DNA from: a virus
Reading direction: 5' to 3' (one strand)
DNA: 35,751 nt
Virus record (IMG/VR): IMGVR_UViG_3300009285_004675
Coordinates: 1-35,751 of that record
Part shown: piece after piece, positions 1 to 35,751 of the stretch
How positions within the stretch are numbered: the stretch's first letter is position 1
Layout: each line of letters opens with the position of its first letter
Program-made: the position numbers and the translations under genes
Notes under the pieces: generated by a model
The model's database searches: none
Told to the model about the DNA's origin: nothing
The model's input: only the letters and a program-made list of their open reading frames with translations

Positions 1-1011
1 GTAGATGTGGGAAAGCCTGTCAAACAAGTGAGGGCCTGTATCACAACCTTCCTTAATCACGGCAAGCCCCTGCCGCTCTGGTTGTTCGAAGGCGGGGGAG
101 AGACGCTGGATACAGGTATGAAGGTAGCGGCCCCAATCTATCGCCGCATCTACCACACTTGGGCCTGCCACATTATCACGTAGCCAGGCGCACATCACCA
201 ATACCGTCTTTAGTATCTTCTCCGGGATACGGGCGGCCATCGTCCGGGCGAAAGGGGTGGACTTTATCTGAACCTGGGTAAACTTATTGTAGAACACAGC
301 CCATACATCACGGGCTTGTTCGTCAAGCTGAACCTCACCCTCAAAGTCCAGGATGGGAGTCCACTTAAACTCAGACCAGTCAGGCGGGGGGGGCCAATCT
401 TTTTCTTGCCGAGGGTCGCCCAACACGAATACCATACGGTTTCCAAAGCCTGCCATCAGGTCGGATGCGGTCAAGTAGGATTGGAGCCACTCAATCGTGC
501 TACCACTGAGGATGGTGAGGAAGATGTTCTCTACCACTATCGGGTCATAGCGGGTGTAGTTGCCGGCGGTGGAGGGGCAGCTATACAACTCCACTATCCG
601 GCTGAGAAGGTCGGCGGCAAAATCCTGACGCTTCTTACTCAGGAGAGCGGCCATCTCATCCAGCCATAGGAGTGCCCTCCCCCCGCCAGTCAACATAGCC
701 TGGAGGAGGCCCTGTTGGGTCGTTACATTACGGGTTGGTGGTATATCGCTAACCCCCCGCATGGACTCAATGCCGAGGGACATCGCCGTGGACTTGTGGG
801 TTATACTGCTATCGCCTACCAAGCAGGTGTAGTAGTTGGGGTATATGGGCGTGGCGTATCGGATGCTGGTGCGCCGTCCCAACAGATGACCACTCAGGGT
901 TAGGAAAGTTGCGTAGACGTAAGCATATGGGTAATTACTCACCCCTGCCACGGCATCTGCATAGCTCTCTGCGGCGGAGAACCACCCCCGCCGGGACATA
1001 TCGTAGTCCAT
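1..1011 (-). CDS. DUF3987-like replication ATPase (C-terminus outside window)
   Basis: The frame stays open for 337 codons from the ATG at 1011 to the window edge, so the C-terminus is missing. Residues 66-75 read GDSSITHKST, a P-loop-like nucleotide-binding motif with His where a Gly usually precedes the Lys. Residues 114-119 read LLWLDE, a Walker B-like strand. The order N-terminal helical region, P-loop, DE box, then a helical region with FGNRMVF near residue 200 resembles the DUF3987 helicase/primase-associated ATPases of phages and plasmids. A role in replication is inferred from the family. The start overlaps the stop of the upstream gene (TAATG), so translation is probably coupled. The P-loop family call is fairly safe; the exact family is from memory. 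Confidence 0.72.
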   Translation of the reverse strand, partial: MDYDMSRRGWFSAAESYADAVAGVSNYPYAYVYATFLTLSGHLLGRRTSIRYATPIYPNYYTCLVGDSSITHKSTAMSLGIESMRGVSDIPPTRNVTTQQGLLQAMLTGGGRALLWLDEMAALLSKKRQDFAADLLSRIVELYSCPSTAGNYTRYDPIVVENIFLTILSGSTIEWLQSYLTASDLMAGFGNRMVFVLGDPRQEKDWPPPPDWSEFKWTPILDFEGEVQLDEQARDVWAVFYNKFTQVQIKSTPFARTMAARIPEKILKTVLVMCAWLRDNVAGPSVVDAAIDWGRYLHTCIQRLSPAFEQPERQGLAVIKEGCDTGPHLFDRLSHIY

Positions 1012-1343
1012 TACTCTCCGATGTCGAGATACGGCGCTATCTCGGTAAGGGTGGGTCGCACATGCTCAAAGAATTCGTTAAATTCGGCAGGAAATAGAAC
1101 CGCCGAAATTACAAGGTATTGGTGGATTCCCACCATCGTGTCAGCGCAGTATGCGTGCTGGGCGATTCCCTCACATCCGCTCAGGCCATAGAAGATACCC
1201 AGAGCGTGCGACTTTTTAAGGTTTACGTCCTTTGTCACATCGTTGAGTTTCTGGGCGTTATTGTGGATGAAAACTTCGATTTCACCCCGTAACCACTTTG
1301 CCTTGGCCTGGATTTCCTTCAACTGGATTTCATTGATTTCCAT
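1011..1343 (-). CDS. hypothetical protein, 110 aa, helical
   Basis: I do not recognise a family. The protein is soluble and mostly helical at the N-terminus (KEIQAKAKWLRGEIE) with a second half rich in Phe and Tyr. A GGAG-type SD lies a few bases before the ATG. It is the last gene before the DUF3987-like ATPase and overlaps its start by one base (TAATG), so it may work with that ATPase; that is inference from position only. Confidence 0.7.
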   Translation of the reverse strand: MEINEIQLKEIQAKAKWLRGEIEVFIHNNAQKLNDVTKDVNLKKSHALGIFYGLSGCEGIAQHAYCADTMVGIHQYLVISAVLFPAEFNEFFEHVRPTLTEIAPYLDIGE

Positions 1344-1354
1344 GCTTCTCCTCT

Positions 1355-1519
1355 CTATAACTCTCTATATGAGAGTGTGTAGTCCCCACACTTACACTGT
1401 CGTTCGGTGTATGTCATCCGGTCTTTTATGTCACACTTAAATACCTTATGTTTGTGACCGAACAGTAGGCACCACAGCACTCTGGGGAATCGGCCTCTGA
1501 TATGATGTTCCTCAGTCAA
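1355..1519 (-). CDS. zinc-knuckle miniprotein, 54 aa
   Basis: This short frame fills what otherwise looks like a 170-base gap. It starts at a TTG (1519) that overlaps the end of the upstream gene by 8 bases and stops 11 bases before the next ATG. The protein has W-C at 16-17, then GHKHKVFKC (21-29) and RQCKCGDYTL (40-49), a Cys/His spacing typical of small phage zinc proteins. No ATG is available until codon 35, which would remove half the zinc ligands, so the TTG is favoured. The function is unknown; nucleic-acid binding is a guess from the fold class. Confidence 0.6.
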   Translation of the reverse strand: MTEEHHIRGRFPRVLWCLLFGHKHKVFKCDIKDRMTYTERQCKCGDYTLSYREL

Positions 1520-1733
1520 GGGACTTCGCTATCTCGGCGGCCTTCTCCACCGCCTTTGCGTATTCCAGGGCCATGTCGGGGGTTAGCTCCCGTTTGCTTG
1601 ACAAGTATATCTTGGAGGGTAGTAACCCATTTGTCCCCCTCCACTTTGCCACCATAATGAAGCTATCGTTGTTAAACGGGTATAGGTAATAAACCCTCTC
1701 CCCCCGCCCAAACTTTACATCCTCAATAAGCAT
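1512..1733 (-). CDS. hypothetical protein, 73 aa
   Basis: The start is set by a strong SD (GGAGGAGG) seven bases before the ATG at 1733; a longer upstream frame exists but would bury that SD. The N-terminal half is beta-rich (RGERVYYLYPF) and contains KWRG; the C-terminal 25 residues form an Ala/Glu/Lys amphipathic helix. I do not recognise the family. It overlaps the SprT-like gene by 11 bases and belongs to the same transcript. Confidence 0.7.
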   Translation of the reverse strand: MLIEDVKFGRGERVYYLYPFNNDSFIMVAKWRGTNGLLPSKIYLSSKRELTPDMALEYAKAVEKAAEIAKSLD

Positions 1734-2283
1734 TGCTAACCTCCTCCACCTTAAATTGCTCGCCACAGTAGCATGTGGGGACTCCCACAGAAATCCACTG
1801 CCGGGTGGTGCGGATGATATAGCCACACTCGCACATTAGCTTGACCATACGGGTGGTCTGCTTCTTCTGTATAGCAGACGGGTCAAGGCTGGCATGGGGG
1901 TATTGGCCAAGCTTATCTGCTATGGCATCCAGTTTCAGGGAGAGGTCATCACCGACATTACTCTTGGTAGGTTTGCCCACCATACCCACAGAGCAGAATA
2001 CCTCACGAAACTCCTTCTTGTGTCCATACTCTACCCCCACTACGGTATGGCATAATTCATGCACCAAAACAGCGATGATTGTTCCCGGCTCGTCCACCTC
2101 CGGGGATATAAAGATTTCGTGGGTCTCGTCATCGCTGGAGAGGGGACTCCAACACTGACCAGTGGCCTTGCCTTTGGGCCACCCACACGATACCCTCACC
2201 TTTTCCGGCACCTTCCCCTCAAATATCGGCCTTATGAGGTTTACCGCCTCGGTCAACCAGGACTCCCGAACGGTGTATTTCAT
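1723..2283 (-). CDS. SprT-like zinc metalloprotease
   Basis: Residues 75-79 are HELCH, an HExxH zinc site in the helix VLVHELCHTVVG, followed by GHKKEF (88-93), the placement seen in SprT/Spartan-type proteins. Residues 151-173 carry two CxC pairs (CECG and CYCG), matching the C-terminal zinc ribbon of SprT-like domains. Total length (186 aa) fits the family. Cellular Spartan proteins cleave DNA-protein crosslinks; phage versions are common but their targets are mostly unknown. The start overlaps the preceding miniprotein by ATGA. Position beside the replication ATPase fits a DNA-metabolism role, which is inference. Confidence 0.85.
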   Translation of the reverse strand: MKYTVRESWLTEAVNLIRPIFEGKVPEKVRVSCGWPKGKATGQCWSPLSSDDETHEIFISPEVDEPGTIIAVLVHELCHTVVGVEYGHKKEFREVFCSVGMVGKPTKSNVGDDLSLKLDAIADKLGQYPHASLDPSAIQKKQTTRMVKLMCECGYIIRTTRQWISVGVPTCYCGEQFKVEEVSNAY

Positions 2284-2399
2284 TCTTCCCCCTCTTCAAA
2301 ATCTTCGCACTCACAGTCCCAGGATATATGTATTGTGTGTAATGCACATCTTTTCTTATCATTGTTTACACACTCTATAAATTCACATATGACATTCAT
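2280..2399 (-). CDS. cysteine-rich miniprotein, 39 aa (DUF1540-like spacing)
   Basis: A 39-codon frame sits exactly between two neighbours with ATGA overlaps at both ends (2396-2399 and 2280-2283), strong evidence that it is translated. Cysteines at 5, 10, 18, 29 and 31 with VICEFIEC, an Asn-Asn turn, KRCALHTIHI and CECEDF resemble the small DUF1540-type cysteine proteins. That resemblance is from memory and loose. The tail is very acidic (EDFEEGEE). Metal binding is likely; function unknown. Confidence 0.65.
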   Translation of the reverse strand: MNVICEFIECVNNDKKRCALHTIHISWDCECEDFEEGEE

Positions 2400-2671
2400 A
2401 GCACTCTCGCTCCTTTCATACTGCGGTGGGCTTGACGCAACTGTTTCAACGCCAAGTCGTATTCCTCTACCGCTCCGAGGTATTCCCCCCGCAACTTACC
2501 TGCGTGGTTGTGGGAGATAGTGAACAATTGCCCTCTGGCCTTTCTTGCTACTCCGAGAGCCATTGCGTATTGCTCTCGTTTGTGTTTGAGACACTCCCAC
2601 GCCTCCTTGATACGGGTGAGGGCGAGGTCAAAGTCACCCATCGTTTTGGTGGTGGACTGGAAGGTTTTCAT
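2396..2671 (-). CDS. hypothetical helical protein, 91 aa, first gene of unit 4
   Basis: The sequence is rich in Ala, Leu, Lys, Arg and Gln with long helical stretches and several candidate heptads, so it is probably a small coiled-coil protein. No family recognised. AGGAG lies five bases before the ATG. A TTGACA/GACAAT promoter lies immediately upstream (2681-2709), so this is the first gene of a unit that ends with the DUF3987-like ATPase. Confidence 0.7.
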   Translation of the reverse strand: MKTFQSTTKTMGDFDLALTRIKEAWECLKHKREQYAMALGVARKARGQLFTISHNHAGKLRGEYLGAVEEYDLALKQLRQAHRSMKGARVL

Positions 2672-2680
2672 TACACTCCT

Positions 2681-2709
2681 ATTGTCTCATGGATTTTGGG
2701 GATTGTCAA
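2681..2709 (-). promoter_or_regulatory. sigma70-type promoter for unit 4
   Basis: On the minus strand TTGACA (2704-2709) is followed by a 17-bp spacer and GACAAT (2681-2686, 4 of 6 to consensus). The -10 ends only nine bases before the ATG at 2671, so a normal start site would give a leader of a few bases at most. Confidence 0.6.
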
Positions 2710-2719
2710 GACATGGATA

Positions 2720-2812
2720 TTCTTTTCCGGTTTTGATGGGGAAACCCCTATCTGACGATTTTCCCCCTTAGTTCTTCTCTTCCGGTTTTGGTGGTCTAAT
2801 GTTGTATCTGAC
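2720..2812. repeat. imperfect tandem repeat of about 55 bp upstream of unit 4
   Basis: TTTTCCGGTTTTGATGG (from 2723) recurs as CTCTTCCGGTTTTGGTGG about 55 bp on, and each copy is followed about 10 bases later by TATCTGAC (2749 and 2805). The two copies lie just upstream of the -35 of the unit 4 promoter. Between 2672 and 2931 I see no gene; the interval holds this repeat, the promoter and a terminator-like hairpin. Confidence 0.65.
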
Positions 2813-2900
2813 CCTTTTTTGCCCCATCATATATAGTAAAAAAAAACTATAGGACATAAATTACTGCTTTGGTGTGAGGATAACCCCATCAAAAGTAGTA

Positions 2901-2923
2901 ATAAAAGTCTCAAGAGGGAAACT
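2901..2923 (-). terminator. weak intrinsic terminator at end of unit 3
   Basis: Read on the minus strand, AGTTTC and GAGACT form a six-pair stem (one G-U) with a six-base loop, followed by TTTTATTA. It lies 9 bases after the stop of the last gene of unit 3. The stem is short, so termination may be partial. Confidence 0.45.
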
Positions 2924-2931
2924 CTGCCTGC

Positions 2932-3117
2932 TCAGTCCGGCAGAATTGCCCGTATCTCAATCTCTATTACGTGGGGTTGACCGAGCGTATCCCACACCTT
3001 CTTACTGATGTAGGGGTAGGGAAAGTCGTGGTTGCGTATGGCCTCCCCCTTCCCCGTAATAGCCACGAACCGCACCATCCTGGCCGTGAACGTATCCAAC
3101 TCGTATCTATACTTCAT
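2932..3117 (-). CDS. hypothetical protein, 61 aa
   Basis: The ATG at 3117 overlaps the upstream stop (ATGA) and has GGAGG six bases before it, so I prefer it to the longer frame starting at 3129. The protein is beta-rich with a short basic centre (ITGKGEAIRNHDF) and ends in alternating hydrophobic residues (VIEIEIRAIL). No family recognised. Last gene of unit 3, directly followed by a terminator-like hairpin. Confidence 0.68.
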   Translation of the reverse strand: MKYRYELDTFTARMVRFVAITGKGEAIRNHDFPYPYISKKVWDTLGQPHVIEIEIRAILPD

Positions 3118-3419
3118 TTCTTCCTCCACACCTTTAGCGACCAGAAACCAAACTCACCCCCTGACCAACGCACCTTGAATCGTGGGTTCCGTAATGGGAA
3201 GTGTCCCGGAGTTCTTTCGGTTTCCTCCAAACACACCCCATTCTCATTGCTTGGGTTGAATGTCGGCCCATTGATATATCCCATAAGTTTATCCCAAACC
3301 TCAATGAATCCACCCAATTCTCTCACAGTGGGTTCTACCCTCTCCCATCCATCCCCCACTATGTGGGGGCGCACCTCCCCCCGCCACACCTCTTTCTCGT
3401 TAACCATTACCTTAAACAT
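3114..3419 (-). CDS. hypothetical protein, 101 aa
   Basis: A soluble beta-rich protein with many Trp, Gly and Glu residues (for example GDGWERVEPTVREL and RWSGGEFGFWSL). I do not recognise it. An AAGGAG SD precedes the ATG, and the start overlaps the end of the zinc protein upstream while its stop overlaps the next start by ATGA, placing it firmly in the unit 3 operon. Confidence 0.68.
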   Translation of the reverse strand: MFKVMVNEKEVWRGEVRPHIVGDGWERVEPTVRELGGFIEVWDKLMGYINGPTFNPSNENGVCLEETERTPGHFPLRNPRFKVRWSGGEFGFWSLKVWRKK

Positions 3420-3591
3420 TAGACTCCTTTCTTTTCCACACCTCTAACGCCTCATCCCACATTTCGTCCATCATCCAGTCATCAAAGTCGTCAGAGCGCC
3501 CATCCATGCTCTTGGCCCTCCCCCCGCAAAGCTCACACACTCCTACACTGGGTCGTATAAGGTTCCCGCAAGCGCACAGGAATTCACTCAC
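3412..3591 (-). CDS. zinc-ribbon miniprotein with acidic tail, 59 aa
   Basis: Starts at a GTG that overlaps the upstream stop as GTGA (3588-3591) and ends inside the next start. Residues 6-22 give CAC...CELC, a CxC-x12-CxxC zinc ribbon; residues 29-46 are highly acidic (DGRSDDFDDW), followed by MDEMWDEAL. The pattern of zinc ribbon plus acidic tail suggests a protein-protein or DNA-mimic interaction, but that is speculation. It was hidden because it is one codon under a 60-residue cut-off. Confidence 0.68.
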   Translation of the reverse strand: MSEFLCACGNLIRPSVGVCELCGGRAKSMDGRSDDFDDWMMDEMWDEALEVWKRKESNV

Positions 3592-3800
3592 CGAGCCTCA
3601 CCATTGAGTCCTCTGAGAAACTCGTTCGTCCACCCACTTGCTATTGATGTCGTAAAGATTCTCCCCAAGGCATAAGCGTCATCAAGGTAGTCTTTCCACT
3701 CACCACTAATGGATTTTATCTCTTCGTTGGATGACAGGAGAGGAATGTGGATAGGCCCCTCATAATATGTTTGTTTGCAATGCTCACATGTCTTTTTCAC
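3588..3800 (-). CDS. hypothetical protein with N-terminal CxxC, 70 aa
   Basis: Starts at GTG 3800 with AAGGAGG eight bases upstream. Residues 5-8 are CEHC, a lone CxxC pair; the rest is soluble and acidic to neutral. No family recognised. The same GATAGAGTG start context occurs in the gene before it (4150), so the two probably share initiation strength. Its stop overlaps the next GTG. Confidence 0.65.
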   Translation of the reverse strand: MKKTCEHCKQTYYEGPIHIPLLSSNEEIKSISGEWKDYLDDAYALGRIFTTSIASGWTNEFLRGLNGEAR

Positions 3801-3812
3801 TCTATCCTCCTT

Positions 3813-3856
3813 ATATCTCAGATTTGTTCTCTACATATCTCAGATTTGTTCTCTAC
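3813..3856. repeat. perfect 22-bp tandem duplication
   Basis: The unit ATATCTCAGATTTGTTCTCT plus AC is present twice without any mismatch (3813-3834 and 3835-3856). It covers the 3' end of the gene at 3818-4150 and the SD-proximal spacer of the next gene. Confidence 0.95.
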
Positions 3857-4150
3857 TACCTCCTCAGCTTCCCTCATCAGAGCCACGTCGGAGTCTGAGA
3901 TTCTATATTCTATGCATTCTATTCCGCCGATGATGGAGAGTAAGCCCTTGATAATACGCTTACTCTCAGTATCACGTAGTTTATGTAGCAGGTCTTTGAG
4001 GGAATAGGTTGTTTTGTTTCCCAACCCAATTCTCTCCTTAGACATATCATAGGTGTGGATAAACGCCCCATTTGGGTATTTGGAGACATCAATCTCTATC
4101 CCCCCAATATCCTCCTCTACATATGTGGATGTTATATAGCTGTATTTCAC
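3818..4150 (-). CDS. hypothetical protein, 110 aa, C-terminus altered by duplication
   Basis: The GTG at 4150 overlaps the upstream stop as GTGA and has AAGGAT before it; a frame start at 4177 would overlap the upstream gene more and is less likely. The protein is mixed alpha/beta with IGGIEIDVSKYP and a later IIGGIECIEYRI, possibly an internal repeat of the IGGIE motif. No family recognised. The 22-bp tandem duplication adds five residues (CREQI) and a new TGA; without it the protein would stop at a TAA right after SEI. Confidence 0.68.
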   Translation of the reverse strand: MKYSYITSTYVEEDIGGIEIDVSKYPNGAFIHTYDMSKERIGLGNKTTYSLKDLLHKLRDTESKRIIKGLLSIIGGIECIEYRISDSDVALMREAEEVVENKSEICREQI

Positions 4151-4464
4151 TCTATCCTTCTTAATTTCGCTTTGCACAGGTTAACCAGGTCACGTGCTGC
4201 CTGCACTTTATCTTCATCGCTATCTGGATTTGACCACCTGTCATACGGTGCCCCGTCATCGTAACAATGACGGTAATTACCCCAATCAACTGGGCACGCA
4301 CGGCAGTGATAGCAGTCGTGGTCAACTAATGAGGCGGCGTATCCACACAGGAAACAGTCGTTCTCAACCTCCTCTTCCCATTCGGGCCACTCTCTCTTCC
4401 CACAGTGGGGGTGGTCTGCTAACCACTCCCAAAGCTGTATAGTTTTCCGTAGTGCTTTTTTCAT
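4147..4464 (-). CDS. Cys/His/Trp-rich zinc protein, 105 aa
   Basis: The ATG at 4464 overlaps the upstream stop (ATGA). The N-terminal part has LWEWLADHP and REWPEWEEE, then NDCFLCGYAA, HDCYHCRACP and a late HCYDDG with YDRW. This run of CxxC, CxxCxxC and single Cys is a layout I remember from many uncharacterised phage proteins. It probably binds one or two zinc ions. Function unknown. Confidence 0.7.
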   Translation of the reverse strand: MKKALRKTIQLWEWLADHPHCGKREWPEWEEEVENDCFLCGYAASLVDHDCYHCRACPVDWGNYRHCYDDGAPYDRWSNPDSDEDKVQAARDLVNLCKAKLRRIE

Positions 4465-4763
4465 TGTTCTCCTTTCAACCATCTGGGCAACCTCAATCCA
4501 TCAATCTTATTTGACTGGGGTATGTTTAAACAGAGTATAGGTTCTCCTTTCTTCAAGTGGGATGATGGGAACCCGTATGCCTTCGCCCGTTCTGGCGAGT
4601 CTGTCTCCAGGACGATGGTAGCATGTGCGCCCCGCTTCCACGTAAGGTCGTAGTCAAACATCGCCAGAAGAGTCGCCTGTAGCTCTGGGGGCAGGCGGCG
4701 TAGGTTATGGCGCTGTTTCCGAGTGACCCTTATAACCCTCTTCTGAATAACCCTTTTCTTCAT
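4461..4763 (-). CDS. basic hypothetical protein, 100 aa
   Basis: The first 27 residues are strongly basic (KKRVIQKRVIRVTRKQRHNL), followed by a mixed domain with TIVLETDSPERAKAYGF and a Lys/Arg-rich end. A basic head could contact nucleic acid. The ATG has GGGAG four bases upstream. No family recognised. A shorter low-confidence frame overlaps its first 59 bases. Confidence 0.68.
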   Translation of the reverse strand: MKKRVIQKRVIRVTRKQRHNLRRLPPELQATLLAMFDYDLTWKRGAHATIVLETDSPERAKAYGFPSSHLKKGEPILCLNIPQSNKIDGLRLPRWLKGEQ

Positions 4764-4839
4764 GGTTCTCCCATCCGCAATCTCTGCATTGGAACCACCT
4801 GCCCAGTATCCCTATGTAGATGTAACCACCATAAAACAT
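4705..4839 (-). CDS. possible zinc-ribbon miniprotein, 44 aa
   Basis: A 44-codon frame fills the 77-base gap between its neighbours and encodes RWFQCRDCGWENHE, a plausible zinc half-site. It has no clear SD and its last 59 bases overlap the next gene in another frame, where its sequence (EEKGYSEEGYKGH) looks low in information. It may be a true overlapping gene or the remains of one. Confidence 0.35.
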   Translation of the reverse strand: MFYGGYIYIGILGRWFQCRDCGWENHEEKGYSEEGYKGHSETAP

Positions 4840-4840
4840 A

Positions 4841-5026
4841 TCATCGTCTACATCTCACGCACAGGCCGCCCTGTGTGTAGGTGCCACATACTGGACACTT
4901 GGAGGTCTGACTATCGTAGGAACAGGCGAATGCTACCTTGTCTGCCAACCTCCTCCACCTACACTCTCCAGGTTCGTATTGGCAGTATTCTACATGCTTA
5001 CACTTATTGCATTTCAACACTGTCAT
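4841..5026 (-). CDS. multi-cysteine zinc protein, 61 aa
   Basis: Ten cysteines in 61 residues: CNKC (6-9), two single Cys near 15 and 22, one near 35, then CPVC (44-47) and CVRC (56-59). Two zinc sites are likely, the second being a rubredoxin-like CPVCG...CVRC pair. The start lies within the end of the previous gene (23-base overlap), with AGAGG immediately upstream. Function unknown. Confidence 0.65.
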   Translation of the reverse strand: MTVLKCNKCKHVEYCQYEPGECRWRRLADKVAFACSYDSQTSKCPVCGTYTQGGLCVRCRR

Positions 5027-5171
5027 CCTCTACGATGATGGTTCTGTTACCACCAAGCTGGAATTGCTCTGCGGCTTTACGGGCACGGGGGTAGTCCACA
5101 GTCTGAAAAACCTTTTGGGCTAACCACCTATCCCCCATAGCATTTTTATTGATAATGATGATGATTGTCAT
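5004..5171 (-). CDS. hypothetical protein, 55 aa
   Basis: Read from ATG 5171 this frame gives a beta strand (MTIIIIINKNA) followed by GDRWLAQKVFQ, DYPRARKAAEQF and a second strand NRTIIVEDDS. It covers what would otherwise be a 120-base gap and overlaps both neighbours. An internal ATG at codon 12 is possible but lacks an SD, while the first ATG has AAGGG at a workable distance. No family recognised. Confidence 0.6.
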   Translation of the reverse strand: MTIIIIINKNAMGDRWLAQKVFQTVDYPRARKAAEQFQLGGNRTIIVEDDSVEMQ

Positions 5172-5355
5172 TCCTCTCAACCCTTTCCCAATGTTCTTTT
5201 ATGATACGGTAGTATGCGTGTTCTGCATGACCAAAGTCTACATGAACGTCGTAGTTGGGTTTGCACCTCACACAATAGTATTCTTGTATTTTAGCATCCT
5301 TGATTGCGCTCTCAGTAGTAACCTCGTGCATCTTGGATTGAATAACCCTCCGCAC
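5146..5355 (-). CDS. hypothetical protein with CxxC, 69 aa
   Basis: The GTG at 5355 has AGGGAG eight bases upstream and is preferred to the ATG at 5331, which has no SD at a good distance. The protein carries YYCVRCK (27-33) and several His (HAEHAYY, HHHYQ at the end), possibly metal-binding. No family recognised. It overlaps a 41-codon frame upstream by 88 bases, so only one of the two may be fully functional. Confidence 0.55.
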   Translation of the reverse strand: MRRVIQSKMHEVTTESAIKDAKIQEYYCVRCKPNYDVHVDFGHAEHAYYRIIKEHWERVERNDNHHHYQ

Positions 5356-5393
5356 TTAACACACTCCCTATATCCTATATATTCGGCTTTCAT
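5268..5393 (-). CDS. possible zinc-knuckle miniprotein, 41 aa
   Basis: The ATG at 5393 overlaps the upstream stop as ATGA and has GGAG before it, the usual gene-junction signature of this operon. The product has ECVKCGG (10-16) and a basic tail (RLLLRAQSR). Its 3' two thirds overlap the next gene in another frame. It could be a complete miniprotein, or the broken front of a longer zinc ribbon whose second CxxC now lies in the next gene. Confidence 0.42.
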   Translation of the reverse strand: MKAEYIGYRECVKCGGLFNPRCTRLLLRAQSRMLKYKNTIV

Positions 5394-5584
5394 TTCTTCT
5401 CCGCCACCCACCCAAATCCAGCAAGGAATGGTCGGAATGACCACCCCTGCCTGAGTAGGGCAGCAGCGAAGCTGCTTACCCTATACTCTTCTGTGAAGGG
5501 GAGTTTAGCTCTGCCTACAAGTGATGCGTTCTTGCCGACTCGTATAACGATTTCCCCATCAGCATGGAAGCACTGGATTAACAT
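5390..5584 (-). CDS. hypothetical protein, 64 aa
   Basis: A small beta-rich protein (GEIVIRVGKNASLVG) with an aromatic C-terminal half (QGWSFRPFLAGFGW). No family recognised. Its ATG overlaps the upstream TAA (TAATG) and its stop overlaps the next ATG. Confidence 0.62.
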   Translation of the reverse strand: MLIQCFHADGEIVIRVGKNASLVGRAKLPFTEEYRVSSFAAALLRQGWSFRPFLAGFGWVAEKK

Positions 5585-5862
5585 TATACCCCCCTTGATG
5601 TTATTTTGAAACCATTAGTGACAAAGAACACCTCTTCCTCACCAAGCCGGTGCATCTCAGAGCATATCTCATTGAAGTTTATACCCTCATGCACCACCTC
5701 TACTACAAACACCGGCTCCACCTGGTTATGCCAGTGTCCCTCAGCGAAGTAGACGGTATATCCCCCAGCTTCCCTCATAATATCCGCAAGTTGGGCCGTC
5801 AACTTGTGGTATATCATGGCAGGGATATACAACCGAGTTGTGCTTACCCTGACACCTTTCAT
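5584..5862 (-). CDS. hypothetical protein, 92 aa
   Basis: The ATG at 5862 overlaps the upstream stop (ATGA) and is preferred over the longer frame from 5988, which lies inside the upstream gene. The protein looks like a compact alpha/beta domain: two helices (AMIYHKLTAQLADIMREA) and strands around GYTVYFAEGHWHN and PVFVVEVVHE. No family recognised. Confidence 0.68.
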   Translation of the reverse strand: MKGVRVSTTRLYIPAMIYHKLTAQLADIMREAGGYTVYFAEGHWHNQVEPVFVVEVVHEGINFNEICSEMHRLGEEEVFFVTNGFKITSRGV

Positions 5863-6347
5863 TTCTCCACCACCTTTCTTATCAGAGCCTTGAGGTCTAA
5901 TTCCCTCTCCGCTACTATAAACTCCATAAATGTTGCCATTGACACCGGTGATGTCACCGTCCTCTTTGCTGCCGCCCGTATATCCCACTTGACAGATTTC
6001 CCAGAGAATGCTGTCTGGGCGCAGAGTATGGCAAATTCTACCCTCTGCTTGGTAGTCACTATAGGCACGTTCACCTCACATATAGTAGTTACCGCCTTAG
6101 CCCCAAACTTCGTGCCGTGGTCAGAGTATACTTGACCCTCCACCGCTATCTCCCACATCCTTTTTCCGTAGCCAAACCTTCCGTGCATAGGATTGAAGAT
6201 TTCGGCCAGGTGGGGGTCGTCATAGAAGTGGATGAGGTCGGCAGTGCAAAACTTATGCTCTGACCCGACCGCTATGTGACGTATGCCCGGCCCCCATTGG
6301 GTGAACCCATAAGTCTGACCCTTGGGGTCGGTAAGTTTATAATACAT
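5859..6347 (-). CDS. hypothetical protein, 162 aa, first gene of unit 3 (DUF7666-like layout)
   Basis: The N-terminal half (YKLTDPKGQTYGFTQW, then C..ADLIHFYDDPHLAEIFNP and later GQVYSDHGTKFGAKAVT) has the order of motifs I associate with DUF7666-type phage proteins: a substrate-like 'what the reader sees' N-terminus, a Cys/His/Tyr patch and a later KxxAxx strand. The match is from memory and weak. AAAGGGGG lies five bases before the ATG, and the best minus-strand promoter of the window is just upstream. Confidence 0.65.
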   Translation of the reverse strand: MYYKLTDPKGQTYGFTQWGPGIRHIAVGSEHKFCTADLIHFYDDPHLAEIFNPMHGRFGYGKRMWEIAVEGQVYSDHGTKFGAKAVTTICEVNVPIVTTKQRVEFAILCAQTAFSGKSVKWDIRAAAKRTVTSPVSMATFMEFIVAERELDLKALIRKVVEK

Positions 6348-6368
6348 AAAAACCCCCTTTCTGTTTAT

Positions 6369-6397
6369 ATCATACCGTTAAACAGTCATCTTGTCAA
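6369..6397 (-). promoter_or_regulatory. strong sigma70-type promoter for unit 3
   Basis: TTGACA (6392-6397) is followed by a 17-bp spacer and TATGAT (6369-6374, 5 of 6). The leader continues with CAGAAAGGGGG before the ATG at 6347. The spacer contains GTTTAACGG, similar to the GTTTAAAC element at two other promoters. Confidence 0.8.
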
Positions 6398-6404
6398 GTC
6401 ATAT

Positions 6405-6767
6405 CTACTCCCTTTTTACACACGGACGTATATACTCTTCCAGCATTATACGAACGGACTCTTCATTCCCAAGTGCATGCGTGTATGACCCAATGCAATG
6501 CTCTATGTAGTGAAACTCAGATTCGTTTATGGGTGACAGTCCCCTCACTGCCAGTATCCACGCCGCTATCTCACACGATACGGTTTCCAGGCAATTCCAC
6601 CCATACCCATTAGGGATAGGCAATTCCGTGTGGGCAATCTCATGGGCAAGGTCAACCCTGAGTTTATCAGCCCTGGAAATATCTGGCCTGGGCTTTGCGC
6701 CAAGGGATATTATATATCCCCCTTCTATATAGCTTATAGTTGAGTTGTTGTTAATCCGTATTCTCAA
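6405..6767 (-). CDS. ImmA/IrrE-like HExxH protein
   Basis: Residues 42-46 are HEIAH within VDLAHEIAHTE, followed 15-25 residues later by CLETVSCEIAAWILA, which supplies Glu residues for a third zinc ligand. This is the arrangement of the ImmA/IrrE (peptidase M78) family, here only 120 residues. In other phages and mobile elements such proteases cleave repressors; a role in switching is possible but no repressor gene is visible nearby. The start is uncertain: TTG 6767 overlaps the upstream stop (TTGA), and TTG 6785 is an alternative; neither has a good SD. Confidence 0.7.
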   Translation of the reverse strand: MRIRINNNSTISYIEGGYIISLGAKPRPDISRADKLRVDLAHEIAHTELPIPNGYGWNCLETVSCEIAAWILAVRGLSPINESEFHYIEHCIGSYTHALGNEESVRIMLEEYIRPCVKRE

Positions 6768-6949
6768 TAATGGACAACCTGACAATCATCATACTTCGCA
6801 TCACGTTTGTCATAGCACGAAATATGTGATATAAGAAACCACCCCTCATCCTCCGAACACCAGAAACCATCTTCGTCTACGGTGCCGAGAGTTGTGCCGA
6901 TTGCCTTTCCTTCAATTGGTTTACCACAAATCGTGCAATAGGTTTTCAT
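6764..6949 (-). CDS. zinc-binding miniprotein, 61 aa
   Basis: N-terminal YCTICGKPIEGKAIG (CxxC) and a later WCSEDEGWFLISHISCYD supply four Cys and one His, a treble-clef or LIM-like spacing. A strong AAGGGGGAG lies before the ATG. The in-frame sequence upstream also encodes two CxxC pairs but has no start codon. Confidence 0.68.
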   Translation of the reverse strand: MKTYCTICGKPIEGKAIGTTLGTVDEDGFWCSEDEGWFLISHISCYDKRDAKYDDCQVVHY

Positions 6950-7037
6950 TTCTCCCCCTTTTTTCTCTTTACACTGAGAGCATAGTTGTTTGCCTGAACA
7001 TATCTTACATCCAGGGACTCCATACTACCTTACATGA

Positions 7038-7640
7038 CTACACCTCCATACGTATTTGGGCGGGGGGTGCCCATAAGAAACTATGCGACTCCACATGACC
7101 CCGTTTCCAGTCCCAGACCGCCCACTGGTAGACAAACGGGGGGAGTCCAACCTGTGCGGCTTCCTTCACCACCAGCGATTCCGCACGCTCATAAGCGGGA
7201 AGTGAGTTGGCTTTGACCCCCAACAATTGTAGCATGTGAGTGTCAAGGCACACGACATCGCTTTCAAGGGGCTTCCATAGGGCCAAGGCGAAACTCAACT
7301 TGGCAGGGCCAAGTCCTGGTAGCTTATATTGACGGCGATACTCCGAGAACGGCAAGGCGGGGGGGGGAATCGGGGTCTCACGCAGCTCCATAAGCAGGGC
7401 CGCCTTCCTGTATCCGGAGCCGCAGGGTTTGAGGGCGACGATGATGTCATGTGCGGTCTTAGCTACCAGAGCACGTTGCCACGCCGTAACTGCGGATTCC
7501 AGGGTGCAATGGGCACTGATTAGGGCAAACTCAAACCGCTCACGTAGTGTGTATGGGCCGGCCTGGAGTCCCCCCGCATATGAGAGATACCGCTCTCTCT
7601 GGTGGTATGCCCATTCCTGGCGGTCAATCGTCGCTATCAA
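7038..7640 (-). CDS. HhH-GPD DNA-glycosylase-like protein
   Basis: Residues 107-119 (LPGLGPAKLSFAL) form a helix-hairpin-helix, and CLDTHML (131-137) supplies the Asp (133) at the position of the catalytic Asp in endonuclease III/MutY/OGG-type glycosylases. The Lys that marks bifunctional glycosylases (LPGxGxK) is displaced by one residue, so a lyase activity is unlikely. No iron-sulfur Cys cluster is present at the end. Length 200 aa fits a minimal HhH-GPD core. It starts at TTG 7640 with AGGTG upstream and overlaps the phosphoribosyltransferase gene by 17 bases. Family members excise bases; the pyrophosphorylases of some phage hypermodification pathways are, as I recall, also in this superfamily. 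Confidence 0.78.
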   Translation of the reverse strand: MIATIDRQEWAYHQRERYLSYAGGLQAGPYTLRERFEFALISAHCTLESAVTAWQRALVAKTAHDIIVALKPCGSGYRKAALLMELRETPIPPPALPFSEYRRQYKLPGLGPAKLSFALALWKPLESDVVCLDTHMLQLLGVKANSLPAYERAESLVVKEAAQVGLPPFVYQWAVWDWKRGHVESHSFLWAPPAQIRMEV

Positions 7641-8025
7641 TTAACACCTGCTTGTGTATGTCAGTAAATTTGACGTATCGGGAGTCAGTTGTAGTTAGAA
7701 TACGGACGGGGATTAGACCGTATTCGCTACAGAAGTTTAGGCACCGTTGGATTGATGCGCCCGATACGCAAAAGTCGTCAACGATGACAACCTCCGTGCC
7801 CACTGCTGGATTATCTCCGGCATGTAGAGAGTGCGCATTCTCACCAGCTTTACGGATGTAAAGGTGGTTGAGTTCTGATAATACTACCATGGCGCTGGCA
7901 ATGGCACAGCCGGAGGAACCCGTAGATACGATGTAGTTGACGTTGGGCGGAATATGTAGTAGATAGGCTTTTGCCCACTTTTCCAGGTCGTGGCAGTATA
8001 GGGAGTGTCCATATTCAAGACGCAT
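7624..8025 (-). CDS. phosphoribosyltransferase-like protein
   Basis: Residues 79-91 read VVIVDDFCVSGAS, the PRPP-binding loop of type I phosphoribosyltransferases (two acidic residues, then a small-residue loop). YIVSTGSSGCAIASA (31-45) fits the upstream pyrophosphate loop. Length (133 aa) is short but covers the Rossmann-like core. Such enzymes exchange a free base for pyrophosphate on PRPP. It overlaps the upstream gene by one base (TGATG) and the glycosylase-like gene by 17, so the three are coupled. A base-salvage or base-exchange role with the glycosylase is inference. Confidence 0.82.
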   Translation of the reverse strand: MRLEYGHSLYCHDLEKWAKAYLLHIPPNVNYIVSTGSSGCAIASAMVVLSELNHLYIRKAGENAHSLHAGDNPAVGTEVVIVDDFCVSGASIQRCLNFCSEYGLIPVRILTTTDSRYVKFTDIHKQVLIDSDD

Positions 8026-8348
8026 CAGTCCCCCTTCGCTATGATATAGTCCATACGGGCTTTAGCTTCCCGTTCCTCTTTGTCCAGCCACCAATGGGAG
8101 TGCAATGCTCTGTGGCACGGATGACACACATAGCGGCTAATCTGGTAGAGATAGCTTTCGTGGTGACGCACCCCCTGTGTGGTTTCCATACCGCACTCTG
8201 TGCATACCGTGCCCATCATAACCCCATCATGCCGGATACGGGCCTTTCGCCGACTTTCACATTCCCGCTTTTGACGGCGGCGGTCGTCCAGATTCCGTGC
8301 GTCATGGGCACGGGAGTATTGGCGGTTGTAACCTGGGGGTTTAGGCAC
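8025..8348 (-). CDS. HNH-like zinc protein, 107 aa
   Basis: The C-terminal half has VCTECGM, then VRHHESYLYQ and VCHPCHRALHSH: two CxxC pairs around an HH motif, the layout of small phage HNH-type nucleases and their inactive relatives. The N-terminal half is very basic (DDRRRQKRECESRRKARIR). Start chosen at GTG 8348, just after the previous gene; a TTG far upstream (8498) would add sequence that looks like the shadow of that gene. Whether it cuts DNA cannot be told from sequence. Confidence 0.62.
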   Translation of the reverse strand: MPKPPGYNRQYSRAHDARNLDDRRRQKRECESRRKARIRHDGVMMGTVCTECGMETTQGVRHHESYLYQISRYVCHPCHRALHSHWWLDKEEREAKARMDYIIAKGD

Positions 8349-8478
8349 TGGGCACCCATAAAGGGTTGCCGTTGGAGAGGGAAACGGTAGCCAGGGGGTC
8401 ACACCACCTACATGAGCGGATACCTTGGCCTTGGAGAATCTCACCTGGCGACAGGTGATGACCACAGCATTTACACAT
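8341..8478 (-). CDS. zinc-ribbon miniprotein, 45 aa
   Basis: Encodes MCKCCGHHLSPGEI and later RSCRWCDPL, a classic four-Cys zinc ribbon. It has AAAGGATGG upstream of the ATG and overlaps the next gene by 8 bases. The frame is different from the longer open frame that covers this interval, and the ribbon motif makes this the better reading. Confidence 0.62.
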   Translation of the reverse strand: MCKCCGHHLSPGEILQGQGIRSCRWCDPLATVSLSNGNPLWVPSA

Positions 8479-8531
8479 TTGAAACCATCCTTTCCCAAAT
8501 CTTTGGATAACGCTTTATGCCATCCACACTT

Positions 8532-8705
8532 TCAGGTTGCCCCCATCACTGCGGTGGACATGTTGGAGTGACCACAGACGGTGAATCTTGCGGGGATATT
8601 GGGCCTGCGGGATGTCAAGGCTTGGAAGCACTTCCACACGCCGTTTATGTCCAGAATAATCCGGCGCATCGTTCCCCCACACTTGGGACAAGTTGACTCT
8701 AACAT
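8532..8705 (-). CDS. zinc-ribbon-like protein, 57 aa, first gene of unit 2, possibly truncated
   Basis: The ATG at 8705 sits behind CAGAAAGGGG and a promoter. The product begins MLESTCPKCGGTMRR and continues GVWKCFQA, then loses the pattern: a second ribbon CxxC would be expected after WKC but the frame gives FQALTSRRP and a late VCGH. It ends at a TGA, after which the same frame stays open. A frameshift or a degraded zinc ribbon is possible. Confidence 0.52.
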   Translation of the reverse strand: MLESTCPKCGGTMRRIILDINGVWKCFQALTSRRPNIPARFTVCGHSNMSTAVMGAT

Positions 8706-8720
8706 CGTTAACCCCTTTCT

Positions 8721-8734
8721 GCCGTTTAAACGGC
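8721..8734. promoter_or_regulatory. 14-bp palindrome in unit 2 leader
   Basis: GCCGTTTAAACGGC is a perfect palindrome placed between the -10 and the SD of unit 2. Related GTTTAAAC or GTTTAACGG sequences overlap the -10 of unit 1 and the spacer of unit 3. An operator is a reasonable guess. Confidence 0.5.
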
Positions 8735-8744
8735 TTTTGACTCT

Positions 8745-8773
8745 ATGGTATCAGACTTTCAGGATGTTGTCAA
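8745..8773 (-). promoter_or_regulatory. sigma70-type promoter for unit 2
   Basis: TTGACA (8768-8773), 17-bp spacer, TACCAT (8745-8750, 4 of 6). The -35 is preceded by GGAC as at the unit 1 promoter. It lies directly after the radical SAM gene, with no terminator between. Confidence 0.65.
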
Positions 8774-8782
8774 GTCCCTACC

Positions 8783-9889
8783 TTAGGACATTGACGCTAT
8801 GGCCGTATCGTATAGGCGCTGGAAGCCGTAGCCGGCGTATACCTGTGCGGCTGGTGATTGCCAGGATTTTATGGGAGTCTCTTCGGATGCGTCCTGGCCG
8901 CTACTCTCGTAATCCGCAAGGCAGAACATGTTGAACCAGCCCAGGTTGGGGACACGTTTCATCCAGTCGGATGTCTGGTCATAGGTGTCAGGTGCTTCAC
9001 CATCAAGACCCACGATGATGTTGGGGCATACGAGCATACCCGCTCTTGCTACCATGTGTGTGGCGACATCTATTAAAGACTCGGTAGCGGGCTTGCGGTA
9101 GATACGGAGAATAGAGTTGTTGTAGCTTTCAACCCCTATCTCTACGGCGATGACGCCCATGCGTTGCCACTCACGCATGGTATCCATGCCCATCTTGACA
9201 ATCTGGGTAGCGGTGGTTTGGACTACAAAGCCGGCGGGGTGTATCCAATCGTTGATAGTGGCTATGTAATCCCAGTCACACTGACCGAAAGTCTTGTCGT
9301 CCATGTAAACAACGCCTACCTCACGGCTGTAGAGGGGCATTAGTTGGTCATAGATACTGGATATACTGTTCTTTACGGCGGGGTGTGGCACTGTGCAAAA
9401 GGTGCATTGGTGGTTGCATCCCGTAGAGAGTTGTAGCCGGACACCGTTGAGGACAGGGCCGTTGCGGGGATAGGCACGGGAGTTGTAGATTTTAGGGCGC
9501 GGTTCACCCTGTAGGTAGGCGATTGTGGCTATCCCCCCCTCTATGGTGTCAAACCATGTGACATTGGGGCCGCCTATGGGTTGACAATACCCCCCCAAGT
9601 AGAAGTGGGTGTTTGGTTGGGATATTGTCAGGTATTTCCAGTGGTTGCGGTTGGCTTCCATCACGCTGCCCAGGACGATGTTGTCGGGTATGGATTCCCA
9701 TGTGTCAAAAAGGCGGAAGTTGGGGTGTTTCATGTAGGGCATAAGGCGGGTGGCCCAGGTGGGAACGTCCCAACACCCTGTGGCAAAGGGAAGGTAGCCG
9801 TGTTTGGCCTTTGCCGCAAGGTGTGCCCTTATGTATTTCCCCAGGGTTGTATTGCCTTGTGACTGTGCTCTGATTTGTGCCAGTATCAT
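8783..9889 (-). CDS. radical SAM enzyme
   Basis: Residues 158-165 are CNHQCTFC, the CxxxCxxC motif that holds the 4Fe-4S cluster; YMDDKTFGQ (195-203) and VEIGVES (249-255) match later strands of the radical SAM barrel. The N-terminal 150 residues include GGYCQPIGG and FDTIEGGIATI then PRPKIYNSRAY, which look like a reduced form of the front domain of B12-binding-type radical SAM enzymes; no DxHxxG cobalamin motif is seen. The substrate cannot be assigned. The start has GGGGGAAG six bases upstream. Being in an early-type operon suggests modification of nucleotide, DNA or host RNA rather than virion assembly. Confidence 0.88.
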   Translation of the reverse strand: MILAQIRAQSQGNTTLGKYIRAHLAAKAKHGYLPFATGCWDVPTWATRLMPYMKHPNFRLFDTWESIPDNIVLGSVMEANRNHWKYLTISQPNTHFYLGGYCQPIGGPNVTWFDTIEGGIATIAYLQGEPRPKIYNSRAYPRNGPVLNGVRLQLSTGCNHQCTFCTVPHPAVKNSISSIYDQLMPLYSREVGVVYMDDKTFGQCDWDYIATINDWIHPAGFVVQTTATQIVKMGMDTMREWQRMGVIAVEIGVESYNNSILRIYRKPATESLIDVATHMVARAGMLVCPNIIVGLDGEAPDTYDQTSDWMKRVPNLGWFNMFCLADYESSGQDASEETPIKSWQSPAAQVYAGYGFQRLYDTAIASMS

Positions 9890-9892
9890 GTT

Positions 9893-10144
9893 TTACTTCC
9901 CCCTTTTCCACACTACCTTACCTTGCCACAGGCAGTATTCGGGATGGTCATAGAGGATGTAGGGTTGGGGCTTGTCATAAGCCCATAAATCCCCTTCGTC
10001 GTCCACTACTACCCATGGTGTTTTATCCACCCCAATCGTAAGGGTGCCGTGTGTATATCCCACATACCCCACTTCCAAGTCCTGGAAAAACACTACTTCC
10101 CCACTCCCAAGTAGCGCCACATCCAATGTTTCAAACTTTACCAT
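9893..10144 (-). CDS. hypothetical protein, 83 aa
   Basis: A beta-rich soluble protein with SGEVVFFQDLEVGYVGY, TPWVVVDDEGDLW and PYILYDHPEYCLW. No family recognised. A GGGGGG SD precedes the ATG; three bases separate its stop from the radical SAM start, so the pair is cotranscribed. Confidence 0.65.
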   Translation of the reverse strand: MVKFETLDVALLGSGEVVFFQDLEVGYVGYTHGTLTIGVDKTPWVVVDDEGDLWAYDKPQPYILYDHPEYCLWQGKVVWKRGK

Positions 10145-10174
10145 TGTGTCCCCCCTCTTGTTTCCATGTGATTA

Positions 10175-10450
10175 TCATACGCTTTCCTCCCTCAGAAGTA
10201 TAAGCAGTCCCTTACCGTTAGTAGCGATGATGGTATCATCCTTCTGTAACTCAAAGGGATATGGGACGCCGTATCTTGACGCCGCTTCCTTCGTCAGTGA
10301 GACCCACATCAGGCGGGTAGCGTGTAGGTGCTCAAGTTTGGAAATGAATTCGGGAGTGATGCCCAAGTCATTCTTGTTTTGTTCGTAGCGCACTACATCG
10401 GCGGCGCTACCATTGTGGATGAATCCCGTGGGACTACGCCAAACTATCAT
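10175..10450 (-). CDS. hypothetical protein, 91 aa, first gene of unit 1
   Basis: Mixed alpha/beta protein; the middle (EFISKLEHLHATRLMWVS) is helical and the end (DTIIATNGKGLLILL) beta-rich. No family recognised. It follows CAGAAAGGGG and a promoter, and is the outermost gene of the minus arm. Confidence 0.65.
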   Translation of the reverse strand: MIVWRSPTGFIHNGSAADVVRYEQNKNDLGITPEFISKLEHLHATRLMWVSLTKEAASRYGVPYPFELQKDDTIIATNGKGLLILLREESV

Positions 10451-10488
10451 GTTTACCCCTTTCTGACCTGTTTTTCAAGGTCAACCAT

Positions 10489-10827: not shown

Positions 10828-10833
10828 GGGATG

Positions 10834-11128: not shown

Positions 11129-11131
11129 GCC

Positions 11132-32239: not shown

Positions 32240-33579
32240 TGTATCTCAACTTGGCACCCTGGGAGTGGGCAACCCAAGAGGACATGTCCTTCTGGCGCGC
32301 CCCTGGTGGGAATGCCACGGGCTGTCTGGACATGCGTTCCCTGCCTCAGTGCGGGAAGCCTGGGCCTACGGCAGAGGGCTACGGCATCTTCGCCTATGAA
32401 ACTGACCCTGGTAGCATAGGCTATAAACTCGGAGACCTTGGCAGCCTGGTGAAAACCCCCATGAAGAACAGTCTGAAGGCTGCCTTCGGCTTGGGTGAGA
32501 ACATTGTTGCGGATACCCCAGAAGGTATCATTGCAGAGGTCTACAACCACCATGCTGACCCTACAGGGCTGCTGCGGTGGAAGCCCATCCGTGGCTCACT
32601 ACGCAAGGGCAGCAAGATAACTTTGGCGGGTAAGACCATCTGGCTTTCTAAACTCACGGCCAACATCCTGTCCAACACCGTAGCGGTATTCCAGGCTGAT
32701 TACCGCCGCAACAAGGCTGTGCCCGATACTCTCAGCGGACTGGACAAGGAAGTCTGGATTCAGGGCTTCCGCACGAAGGAAGAGCGCGCATCCGATACCC
32801 GCCTCACCGAGGTTCAGGCCAGGGAACGCTGGGATGATGTTCTGCGCCGTTGGACTGGCTCGGAGACGAAGAAGCTCTTCGGGAAGATGTCCGATGAGCT
32901 GTCAGCCCAGATATTGCCGCCTGAATACGCAGGTGATAAGTGGCGGGTGCCGAAGACGGTGATTGGGGATACGTTCGTTGAGGCTGCTGGGGATGTAGCC
33001 CTTAACCTCCACACTGCCACAGGCCCGAATGGGGGGTTTAGTTGGACACACGTTGATGGCGAAGCGACTGTGCTTGCTGCTTCTGATGATTTGAAGGGGC
33101 CTATTGTTGCGGCTACAGGCAACCCCTCAAGTTTCCGTGCCGAATTACCATTATCATCAGACGAGCATTATGTGAAGGTGGGTGCAGTCTTTTTCCAACT
33201 CTCAACGTCTTACGCTGGGGTGATGCTTCGGTTTTCGCCAAGTGCAGAGACAGGCATTCTTTTGTGGGCACGGAACACTGCCTCTTATGGACACTTCATC
33301 GGTAAGGTAGTCAATGGGACACTGTCAGAACTAATTAAAGATGCTATTGCAGGAGGGTCACCACCCTGGATAATAAAGGGTGATGTTGACAGCGCTGACC
33401 TTATCACTTTATACATGGACGGGTCTCCATATTTCACATCTACAGACACAACGGGGAGTGGTAACTTGTATACAGGTTTAGCACTAAGCAATGCCATAAC
33501 TCAGTGGTCAAGGGTGGACAACTTTGAGGCAGGGGATTTGGGCGGGGTGACATTTGTTCCAAGGGTGATGATATTTTGA
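32239..33579 (+). CDS. tail appendage protein with lectin-like C-terminal domain, 446 aa
   Basis: The first 230 residues have no recognisable fold (begins LNLAPWEWATQEDMSFW). From about residue 240 the pattern DTFVEAAGDVALNLHTATGP, VGAVFFQLSTSYAGVMLRF and LITLYMDGSPYF fits a concanavalin/LamG-like sandwich of the sort used for sugar binding. TAATG overlap with the previous gene. Base use differs from neighbours in the first half (few A/T-ending codons), hinting at separate origin. Confidence 0.65.
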   Translation: MYLNLAPWEWATQEDMSFWRAPGGNATGCLDMRSLPQCGKPGPTAEGYGIFAYETDPGSIGYKLGDLGSLVKTPMKNSLKAAFGLGENIVADTPEGIIAEVYNHHADPTGLLRWKPIRGSLRKGSKITLAGKTIWLSKLTANILSNTVAVFQADYRRNKAVPDTLSGLDKEVWIQGFRTKEERASDTRLTEVQARERWDDVLRRWTGSETKKLFGKMSDELSAQILPPEYAGDKWRVPKTVIGDTFVEAAGDVALNLHTATGPNGGFSWTHVDGEATVLAASDDLKGPIVAATGNPSSFRAELPLSSDEHYVKVGAVFFQLSTSYAGVMLRFSPSAETGILLWARNTASYGHFIGKVVNGTLSELIKDAIAGGSPPWIIKGDVDSADLITLYMDGSPYFTSTDTTGSGNLYTGLALSNAITQWSRVDNFEAGDLGGVTFVPRVMIF

Positions 33580-35085: not shown

Positions 35086-35094
35086 GAGACAGAC

Positions 35095-35355
35095 ATGAGG
35101 ATAGAGAAGGCTCCCAAAGAAGTCCCAGTGGCGGAGCAGGTGGCAGCTATCCTGGGTGTGCCCTCTGAGACTGTTATGGTCAGGGAGGGGCCGGATGGGG
35201 TAGAGGTGGAGATTTGCTTAATGGAAACCAGGAAGATAGCCCAGAAGGGTAAGAACCCTAAGATTAAAAGTAGCAACGTGGTGGTGGTGGGTGAAGTGCC
35301 AGATGAAAAGAAAGATTATGTCGAGGCGTGGGCCAGGAGACGATTAGGTGGCTAA
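35095..35355 (+). CDS. hypothetical protein, 86 aa
   Basis: Two strands and helices; AILGVPSETVMVREGPDGVE and SSNVVVVGEVPDEKKDYVEAW. AGGAGA precedes the ATG. No family recognised. It is followed by an overlapping membrane-protein gene. Confidence 0.62.
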   Translation: MRIEKAPKEVPVAEQVAAILGVPSETVMVREGPDGVEVEICLMETRKIAQKGKNPKIKSSNVVVVGEVPDEKKDYVEAWARRRLGG

Positions 35356-35584
35356 CGGTCAAATAGCACAGGCTATACATGAAGCGTCTGAACGGTTGGC
35401 GGCGGGGGGATATACCAATGCCGACTTGGGGGATGTTATGTTGGTCGGCTTCGGCTATATGGTGGACGAGATACGAAGGACATCCCGGTTCACCATCAAC
35501 TTCAACTCCCGGACTGCGTTTCCTTTGGGCGCTGTGTCCGCAGGAGCTTTAGCTGGCGTCCTTCGTGTATTAGGTATTCTCTAA
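35348..35584 (+). CDS. small protein with C-terminal membrane segment, 78 aa
   Basis: GTG start overlapping the previous stop. The first half is soluble and helical; the last 20 residues (FPLGAVSAGALAGVLRVLGI) form a plausible transmembrane helix. A holin or membrane adaptor is conceivable at this point of a late operon, but one helix and no partner lysin in the window leave it open. Its 3' end overlaps a convergent gene. Confidence 0.58.
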   Translation: MANGQIAQAIHEASERLAAGGYTNADLGDVMLVGFGYMVDEIRRTSRFTINFNSRTAFPLGAVSAGALAGVLRVLGIL

Positions 35585-35657
35585 TATCCCGTTTCAGTTG
35601 CTTCGCCATTGCCCGGCGCTCCGCCCTGTTCCCGATGAACGGCCCCTCTACTCGCAT
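35502..35657 (-). CDS. small basic protein, 51 aa
   Basis: Starts at ATG 35657 with GGGAAGG upstream, overlapping the partial gene before it. FIGNRAERRAMAKQLKR is a short basic motif of the NRAxRRA type that I recall from many small phage proteins. It converges on, and overlaps by 83 bases, the end of the plus-strand gene. It shows that minus-strand genes resume at the right edge. Confidence 0.55.
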   Translation of the reverse strand: MRVEGPFIGNRAERRAMAKQLKRDIREYLIHEGRQLKLLRTQRPKETQSGS

Positions 35658-35751
35658 CCTTCCCATCCCTGCTTCCCAACCTTGATGTAGATGTCCACGT
35701 TCGCCAGGTCGGGAACCTCATCCTCTTCGTCCAGGTAATAGATGTTATTAC
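35648..35751 (-). CDS. C-terminal end of an acidic protein (start outside window)
   Basis: The last 33 residues of a minus-strand frame (NNIYYLDEEDEVPDL ... IYIKVGKQGW ... GCE) are open to the window edge and overlap the next gene's start by 10 bases. Too little to name. It begins another minus-strand operon. Confidence 0.55.
   Translation of the reverse strand, partial: NNIYYLDEEDEVPDLANVDIYIKVGKQGWEGCE

Follow-up and report, generated by a model that had tools for sequence, protein, structure and literature searches.

At least eight restriction-site-like DNA words are purged from a 35,751-base virus record

Phages are known to eliminate Type II restriction sites from their genomes, more often when they are non-temperate and carry no DNA-modifying genes, and surveys seldom find Type III sites avoided (PMC6286503); one reason proposed for the latter is that Type III enzymes require two inversely oriented sites (PMC8259958). 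Among the described cases, the haloviruses of the HF1 group (HF1, HF2, Serpecor1 and Hardycor2) are without GATC, CTAG, GGWCC and 21 hexamers, which has been interpreted as evasion of varied host defences (PMC7230728). Here, we describe the loss of such words from the IMG/VR virus record IMGVR_UViG_3300009285_004675, a stretch of 35,751 bases (51.7% G+C) that was analysed at its full length, positions 1 to 35,751, and is called the window below. Like the HF1-group viruses, the window has no GATC, CTAG or GGWCC and lacks many six-base palindromes, and HF2 (counted over 40 kb) shares with it the complete loss of GRGCYC. Unlike the window, the HF1-group viruses are archaeal myoviruses, and HF2 keeps 136 GTAC and 116 GAACT sites, whereas GTAC, CYCGRG, CGCG and BGAACT (B, any base but A) are the words missing from the window and not from HF2.

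Counting eliminated palindromic words by the same procedure for all phages, over up to 40 kb each, gave 8 for the window against 19 for HF2, 8 for Thermus phage P23-45, 5 for coliphage T7, 3 for Nostoc phage N1, 2 each for Staphylococcus phage K and Helicobacter phage KHP30, and 0 for both Microcystis phage LMM01 and Gordonia phage Nyceirae. P23-45, T7 and K have eliminated GATC together with other palindromes, as has the window, but their word sets differ from the window's; kinship with these three was tested only by terminase and capsid searches. None of the other loci of at least 9 kb that were examined before the reference phages were added equals the window in missing palindromes of four to five bases. 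The window is a strong case of a long-known phenomenon; its Type III component is uncommon.

Expected counts were taken from first- and second-order Markov models and from a synonymous-codon shuffle (200 shuffles of ~30.1 kb of coding sequence), which pools all genes and preserves the proteins and the overall codon usage. An earlier note had reported GATC, GTAC and CTAG to be absent, and the exact counts are indeed 0, 0 and 0, where the Markov and shuffle nulls expect 60-148 and no model predicts a value near zero. Specifically, the first- and second-order models expect 148 and 125 GATC, 125 and 133 GTAC, and 127 and 88 CTAG, and the shuffled coding part alone expects 116.5, 112.0 and 60.1, with lowest values among the 200 shuffles of 94, 92 and 45; the ~5.8 kb of non-coding DNA is likewise free of all three. 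The list of sites in the earlier note was nevertheless too short, since it overlooked CGCG, GGWCC, CYCGRG, GRGCYC and GAACT, among others. GGWCC (96-105 expected), CYCGRG (45) and GRGCYC (50) are also at zero, so that six words are entirely missing, each with 36-148 copies expected across the Markov and shuffle nulls. CGCG is left with 4 copies where 77-83 are expected (observed/expected ~0.05), the non-palindromic GAACT with 4 where ~59 are expected (3 in coding DNA, against 58 in the synonymous shuffle), and CMGCKG with 3 instead of 30. We take GATC, GTAC, CTAG and CGCG to be the sites of MboI, RsaI, BfaI and FnuDII, and CYCGRG and GRGCYC those of AvaI and BanII; GGWCC is presumably the AvaII site, as a literature abstract also states. 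By the criteria of Rusinov et al. 2018 (observed/expected <0.1, with >15 sites expected), the six words at zero and CGCG all count as eliminated.

These words also emerge without supervision. To discover missing words, we scanned all degenerate palindromes and, with the synonymous shuffle as the null, searched greedily through all degenerate hexamers; the hexamer search returned enzyme-like words first. Control palindromes stand at normal levels, with 156 CCGG observed for 156 expected, 159 GGCC for 152, 102 GANTC for 105 and 89 CATG for 97; CCNGG and GTNNAC are likewise normal under the shuffle null, and TGCA, AGCT, TCGA, ACGT and GCGC are present, just as the earlier note had listed them beside CATG, GGCC and CCGG. 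Since shuffles with the same proteins and codon usage restore every word, the depletion is selection acting on DNA words and not on protein sequence or codon usage, and at least eight words are purged, more than a framing in terms of three sites allows. One further word, CTGAAG, which we take to be an AcuI-type, Type IIG site, occurs once, at 32473, where 16-18 copies are expected; sites of Type IIG are reportedly not subject to avoidance.

The same avoidance holds across codon junctions. The Asp codon before C is GAC in 101 cases and GAT in 0, and elsewhere GAT (267) and GAC (203) are both in use; Glu-Ile is written GAGATA 22 times, GAGATT 12 times and GAGATC never, and both patterns are those that the earlier note had pointed out. 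After G, ATC is chosen for 0 of 122 Ile residues, as compared with 238 of 527 in other contexts, and TAC for 0 of 46 Tyr residues, and before C none of the 121 Val codons is GTA. An alternative is that the host's base composition or codon context, through mutational pressure, codon-pair bias or a mismatch-repair-like bias, removed the words without any restriction. CTAG is scarce in many bacterial genomes, and the other six-base palindromes, pooled with the named words set aside, reach only 0.48 of expectation, compared with 1.06 for non-palindromes, both of which would suit such a bias. However, exact zeros where 100 or more copies are expected, the return of all sites in synonymous shuffles, the absence of GATC, GTAC and CTAG from non-coding DNA as well, and the retention of most of the words by relatives of equal G+C make it exceedingly unlikely. 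The wider six-base depletion was not divided into further specificities, as few sites of each are expected; since GAATTC, GCCGGC, ATCGAT and ACATGT are at normal levels, this loss too goes word by word.

The relatives in question are IMGVR_UViG_3300005253_000047 (47.7 kb; G001), whose terminase and capsid are 52% and 60% identical to those of the window and whose structural genes are syntenic with it, and IMGVR_UViG_3300036761_001269 (12 kb; L114), whose portal protein is 46% identical. L114 shares the losses of GATC (0 for 37-46 expected), GGWCC (0 for 23) and CYCGRG (0 for 10-13), and keeps GTAC (60), CTAG (19), CGCG (78) and GAACT (30) near expectation. In G001, GATC (23 versus 199-237 expected) and GRGCYC (22 versus ~60) are low, and GTAC (194), CTAG (131), GGWCC (151) and GAACT (155) are near expectation. 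The set of avoided words thus shifts within the clade, as expected if hosts impose different enzymes. A single-protein terminase query for close relatives gave no matches, and an alignment-based one gave, G001 aside, only remote relatives at ~24-32% identity. Positions 1-13784 of IMGVR_UViG_3300032266_001042, a remote capsid relative, display an even broader avoidance, with GGCC at 0 of 77 expected, GCRYGC at 0 of 30, GGYRCC at 0 of 18, GRGCYC and CYCGRG at 0, and six-base palindromes at 0.14 of expectation.

Because the loss is specific to enzyme sites, is realised through synonymous choices, spares the control palindromes and differs between relatives, we consider it the best explanation, with a probability of roughly 0.93, that hosts equipped with many restriction-modification systems forced the phage to avoid their sites. 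The part of the earlier note that invoked selection by restricting hosts therefore stands, being borne out by the word-specific and synonymous nature of the loss and by the differing relatives, while its limitation to three sites falls with the at least eight words. Under such avoidance, each missing word would have its matching restriction enzyme among the hosts, the palindromic words corresponding to Type II enzymes and GAACT to a CinI-like Type III enzyme. Incoming unmethylated phage DNA that carries a site would be cut, and site-less variants would replace the site-bearing ones, mostly via synonymous changes.

No N6/N4 methyltransferase (PF01555) was found in the window or in G001, and no integrase among the window proteins scanned (a subset of the open reading frames), which would fit the trend towards non-temperate phages without modification genes (PMC6286503). 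Three points weigh against restriction-site avoidance. The cognate enzymes are deduced from the missing words, and the host was not found in our searches; a methyltransferase or other anti-restriction gene could sit in the missing part of the genome; and the GAACT part is less typical, as Type III sites are rarely avoided (PMC6286503).

The earlier note had also considered that a phage-linked activity might act on the sites. In its nuclease form, one or more site-specific nucleases, phage-encoded or stolen from the host, would degrade host DNA, and the phage would keep its own genome site-free for self-protection. An HNH-like endonuclease candidate does lie at 8025-8498 on the minus strand (phrog_2340, 1e-4), and the window seems to lack the early region of the genome. 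Yet this candidate is weak and, the terminase aside, is the only possible nuclease recognised in the window, whereas at least eight unrelated words would demand many nucleases, and the relatives avoid other subsets of words. We therefore regard this alternative as very unlikely; with no methyltransferase found and a single nuclease unable to read eight words, the suggestion of a phage-linked activity finds no support.

As to the kind of host, the window comes, judged by its gene content, from a tailed bacteriophage and is probably a fragment of its genome. A sigma-70-like promoter, TTGACA-17-TATACT, lies at 12010-12038 (plus strand), with a second at 10834-10861, and strong Shine-Dalgarno sequences precede many genes; together these features point to a bacterial host and agree with the bacterial look that the earlier note had ascribed to the promoters. 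The note had also drawn a parallel to Methanocaldococcus jannaschii, and an archaeal host with specificities of that type (CTAG, GATC, GTAC and, as we presume, GGNCC and GTNNAC) might have shaped the genome, with three of the five sites missing. The other two show no avoidance as such, GGSCC (99 for ~125 expected) and GTNNAC (113 for ~127) being near expectation. Moreover, CGCG, CYCGRG, GRGCYC and GAACT would be left unexplained, and the Shine-Dalgarno sequences, the sigma-70-like promoters and a capsid of a bacterial-phage family all speak against an archaeal host, so that its probability is practically negligible.

Within the restriction-site avoidance that we favour, the loss of GAACT is the less ordinary part, since avoidance of Type III sites is very rare. 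GAACT is the target of the N4-methylcytosine (m4C) Type III systems CinI of Carnobacterium inhibens and Pmi29II of Proteus mirabilis (PMC8259958). Thermanaerosceptrum fracticalcis has it among its reported methylated motifs (PMC7988955), and in gut phages it has been described as a 4mC motif (PMC10711547). Among non-palindromic pentamers, only this recognition word of CinI and Pmi29II has been eliminated from the window. It is depleted on both strands, 1 and 3 copies remaining where ~30 are expected per orientation. The sole plus-strand copy is at 33328-33332, and the minus-strand copies (AGTTC on the plus strand) are at 2770-2774, 3210 and 7871. All four are preceded by A, and BGAACT stands at 0 for ~45 expected. 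Under uniform loss, four of four AGAACT would arise with a chance of only ~0.003 ((14/59)^4). The enzyme may therefore act less well on sites preceded by A, or the real word may be BGAACT, in which case it would differ from the word of CinI and Pmi29II; the cognate enzyme in the window's host is itself postulated.

In the T7/EcoP15I strategy, the leftover sites all lie in a single orientation. This pattern is not seen here, three GAACT survivors being on one strand and one on the other. Their order is left, left, left, right, which leaves no converging pair, an arrangement that chance gives in 5 of 16 cases, and the survivors sit on the coding strand in both arms. We hold it to be an even call that the phage purged, in both orientations, a Type III m4C site (or that of some other asymmetric defence reading BGAACT) in addition to at least seven palindromic sites. 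If so, the window would clearly exemplify the near-complete elimination of a Type III site, something almost absent from surveys, and the loss would bear on whether Type III systems drive full site loss, beyond strand bias. P23-45 has nearly lost the non-palindromic pentamers CGCAG (2 of 50 expected) and GCTGA (4 of 54), and phage K has lost CCAGA (0 of 36), so that the Type III-like part of the window is not unique; these pentamers may be sites of Type III, Type IIS or other asymmetric defences.

The missing words, GATC, GTAC, CTAG, CGCG, GGWCC, CYCGRG, GRGCYC and (B)GAACT, can be seen as the restriction fingerprint of the window's host population, and, combined with a methylome catalogue, such a fingerprint could reveal which host a phage not yet in culture infects. 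A capsid-based prophage scan of genome contigs found none, and a terminase-based one recovered no more than remote relatives, chiefly in Clostridia, with one gammaproteobacterial metagenome-assembled genome besides. Parts of the window, used as queries, gave no credible spacer-like matches in 398 + 398 + 83 + 381 sampled genomes, a weak negative as few phyla are covered; Bacillota-type samples and plasmids gave none either. Weak spacer-like matches in the sample of one phylum were discarded as spurious, because the surrounding sequence is without repeats of the clustered regularly interspaced short palindromic repeat (CRISPR) kind. A cyanobacterial host, which the AvaI- and AvaII-like words might bring to mind, was also rejected, as Nostoc phage N1 avoids another set (GGNCC, GGCC and RCATGY) and nothing else is in its favour.

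The residual sites are unevenly spread. The four CGCG copies are at 9498-9501, 11977, 32296 and 32785, and when CGCG, GAACT, CTGAAG, CMGCKG and CTGCAG are pooled as soft sites, the segment 31340-33579 (plus strand), which holds two genes without a match in G001, contains 6 of the 13 that remain (scan p ~0.005, with site classes picked post hoc). To judge from its sites and genes, this segment was likely exchanged recently.

The plus strand encodes a terminase large subunit at 12365-13924 (phrog_5989, 6.6e-26; phrog_2, 2e-24), akin to the terminases of T4-like phages, a 584-amino-acid protein at 14183-15937 that is 45% identical to its G001 homologue and is called a portal by position only, a major capsid protein at 24016-24963 that fits an epsilon15 gp7-type model (phrog_212, 1.4e-39; NF045672, 103.8 bits), and tail proteins. 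The small genes of the minus strand include, besides the HNH-like endonuclease, a phosphoribosyltransferase-like, an SprT-like and a radical SAM protein, the last of these (8783-9889, in the leftward block) having no match in 50,697 phage records. G001 has genes for a DNA polymerase, an RNase H, a uracil-DNA glycosylase and an ERCC4 nuclease; these genes are absent from the window, so it is probably incomplete, a fragment of a larger genome. Within the head gene block, a 1,985-amino-acid protein (17365-23322, plus strand), which matches no PHROG and no significant Pfam family, is 35% identical to a G001 protein of 2,018 amino acids.

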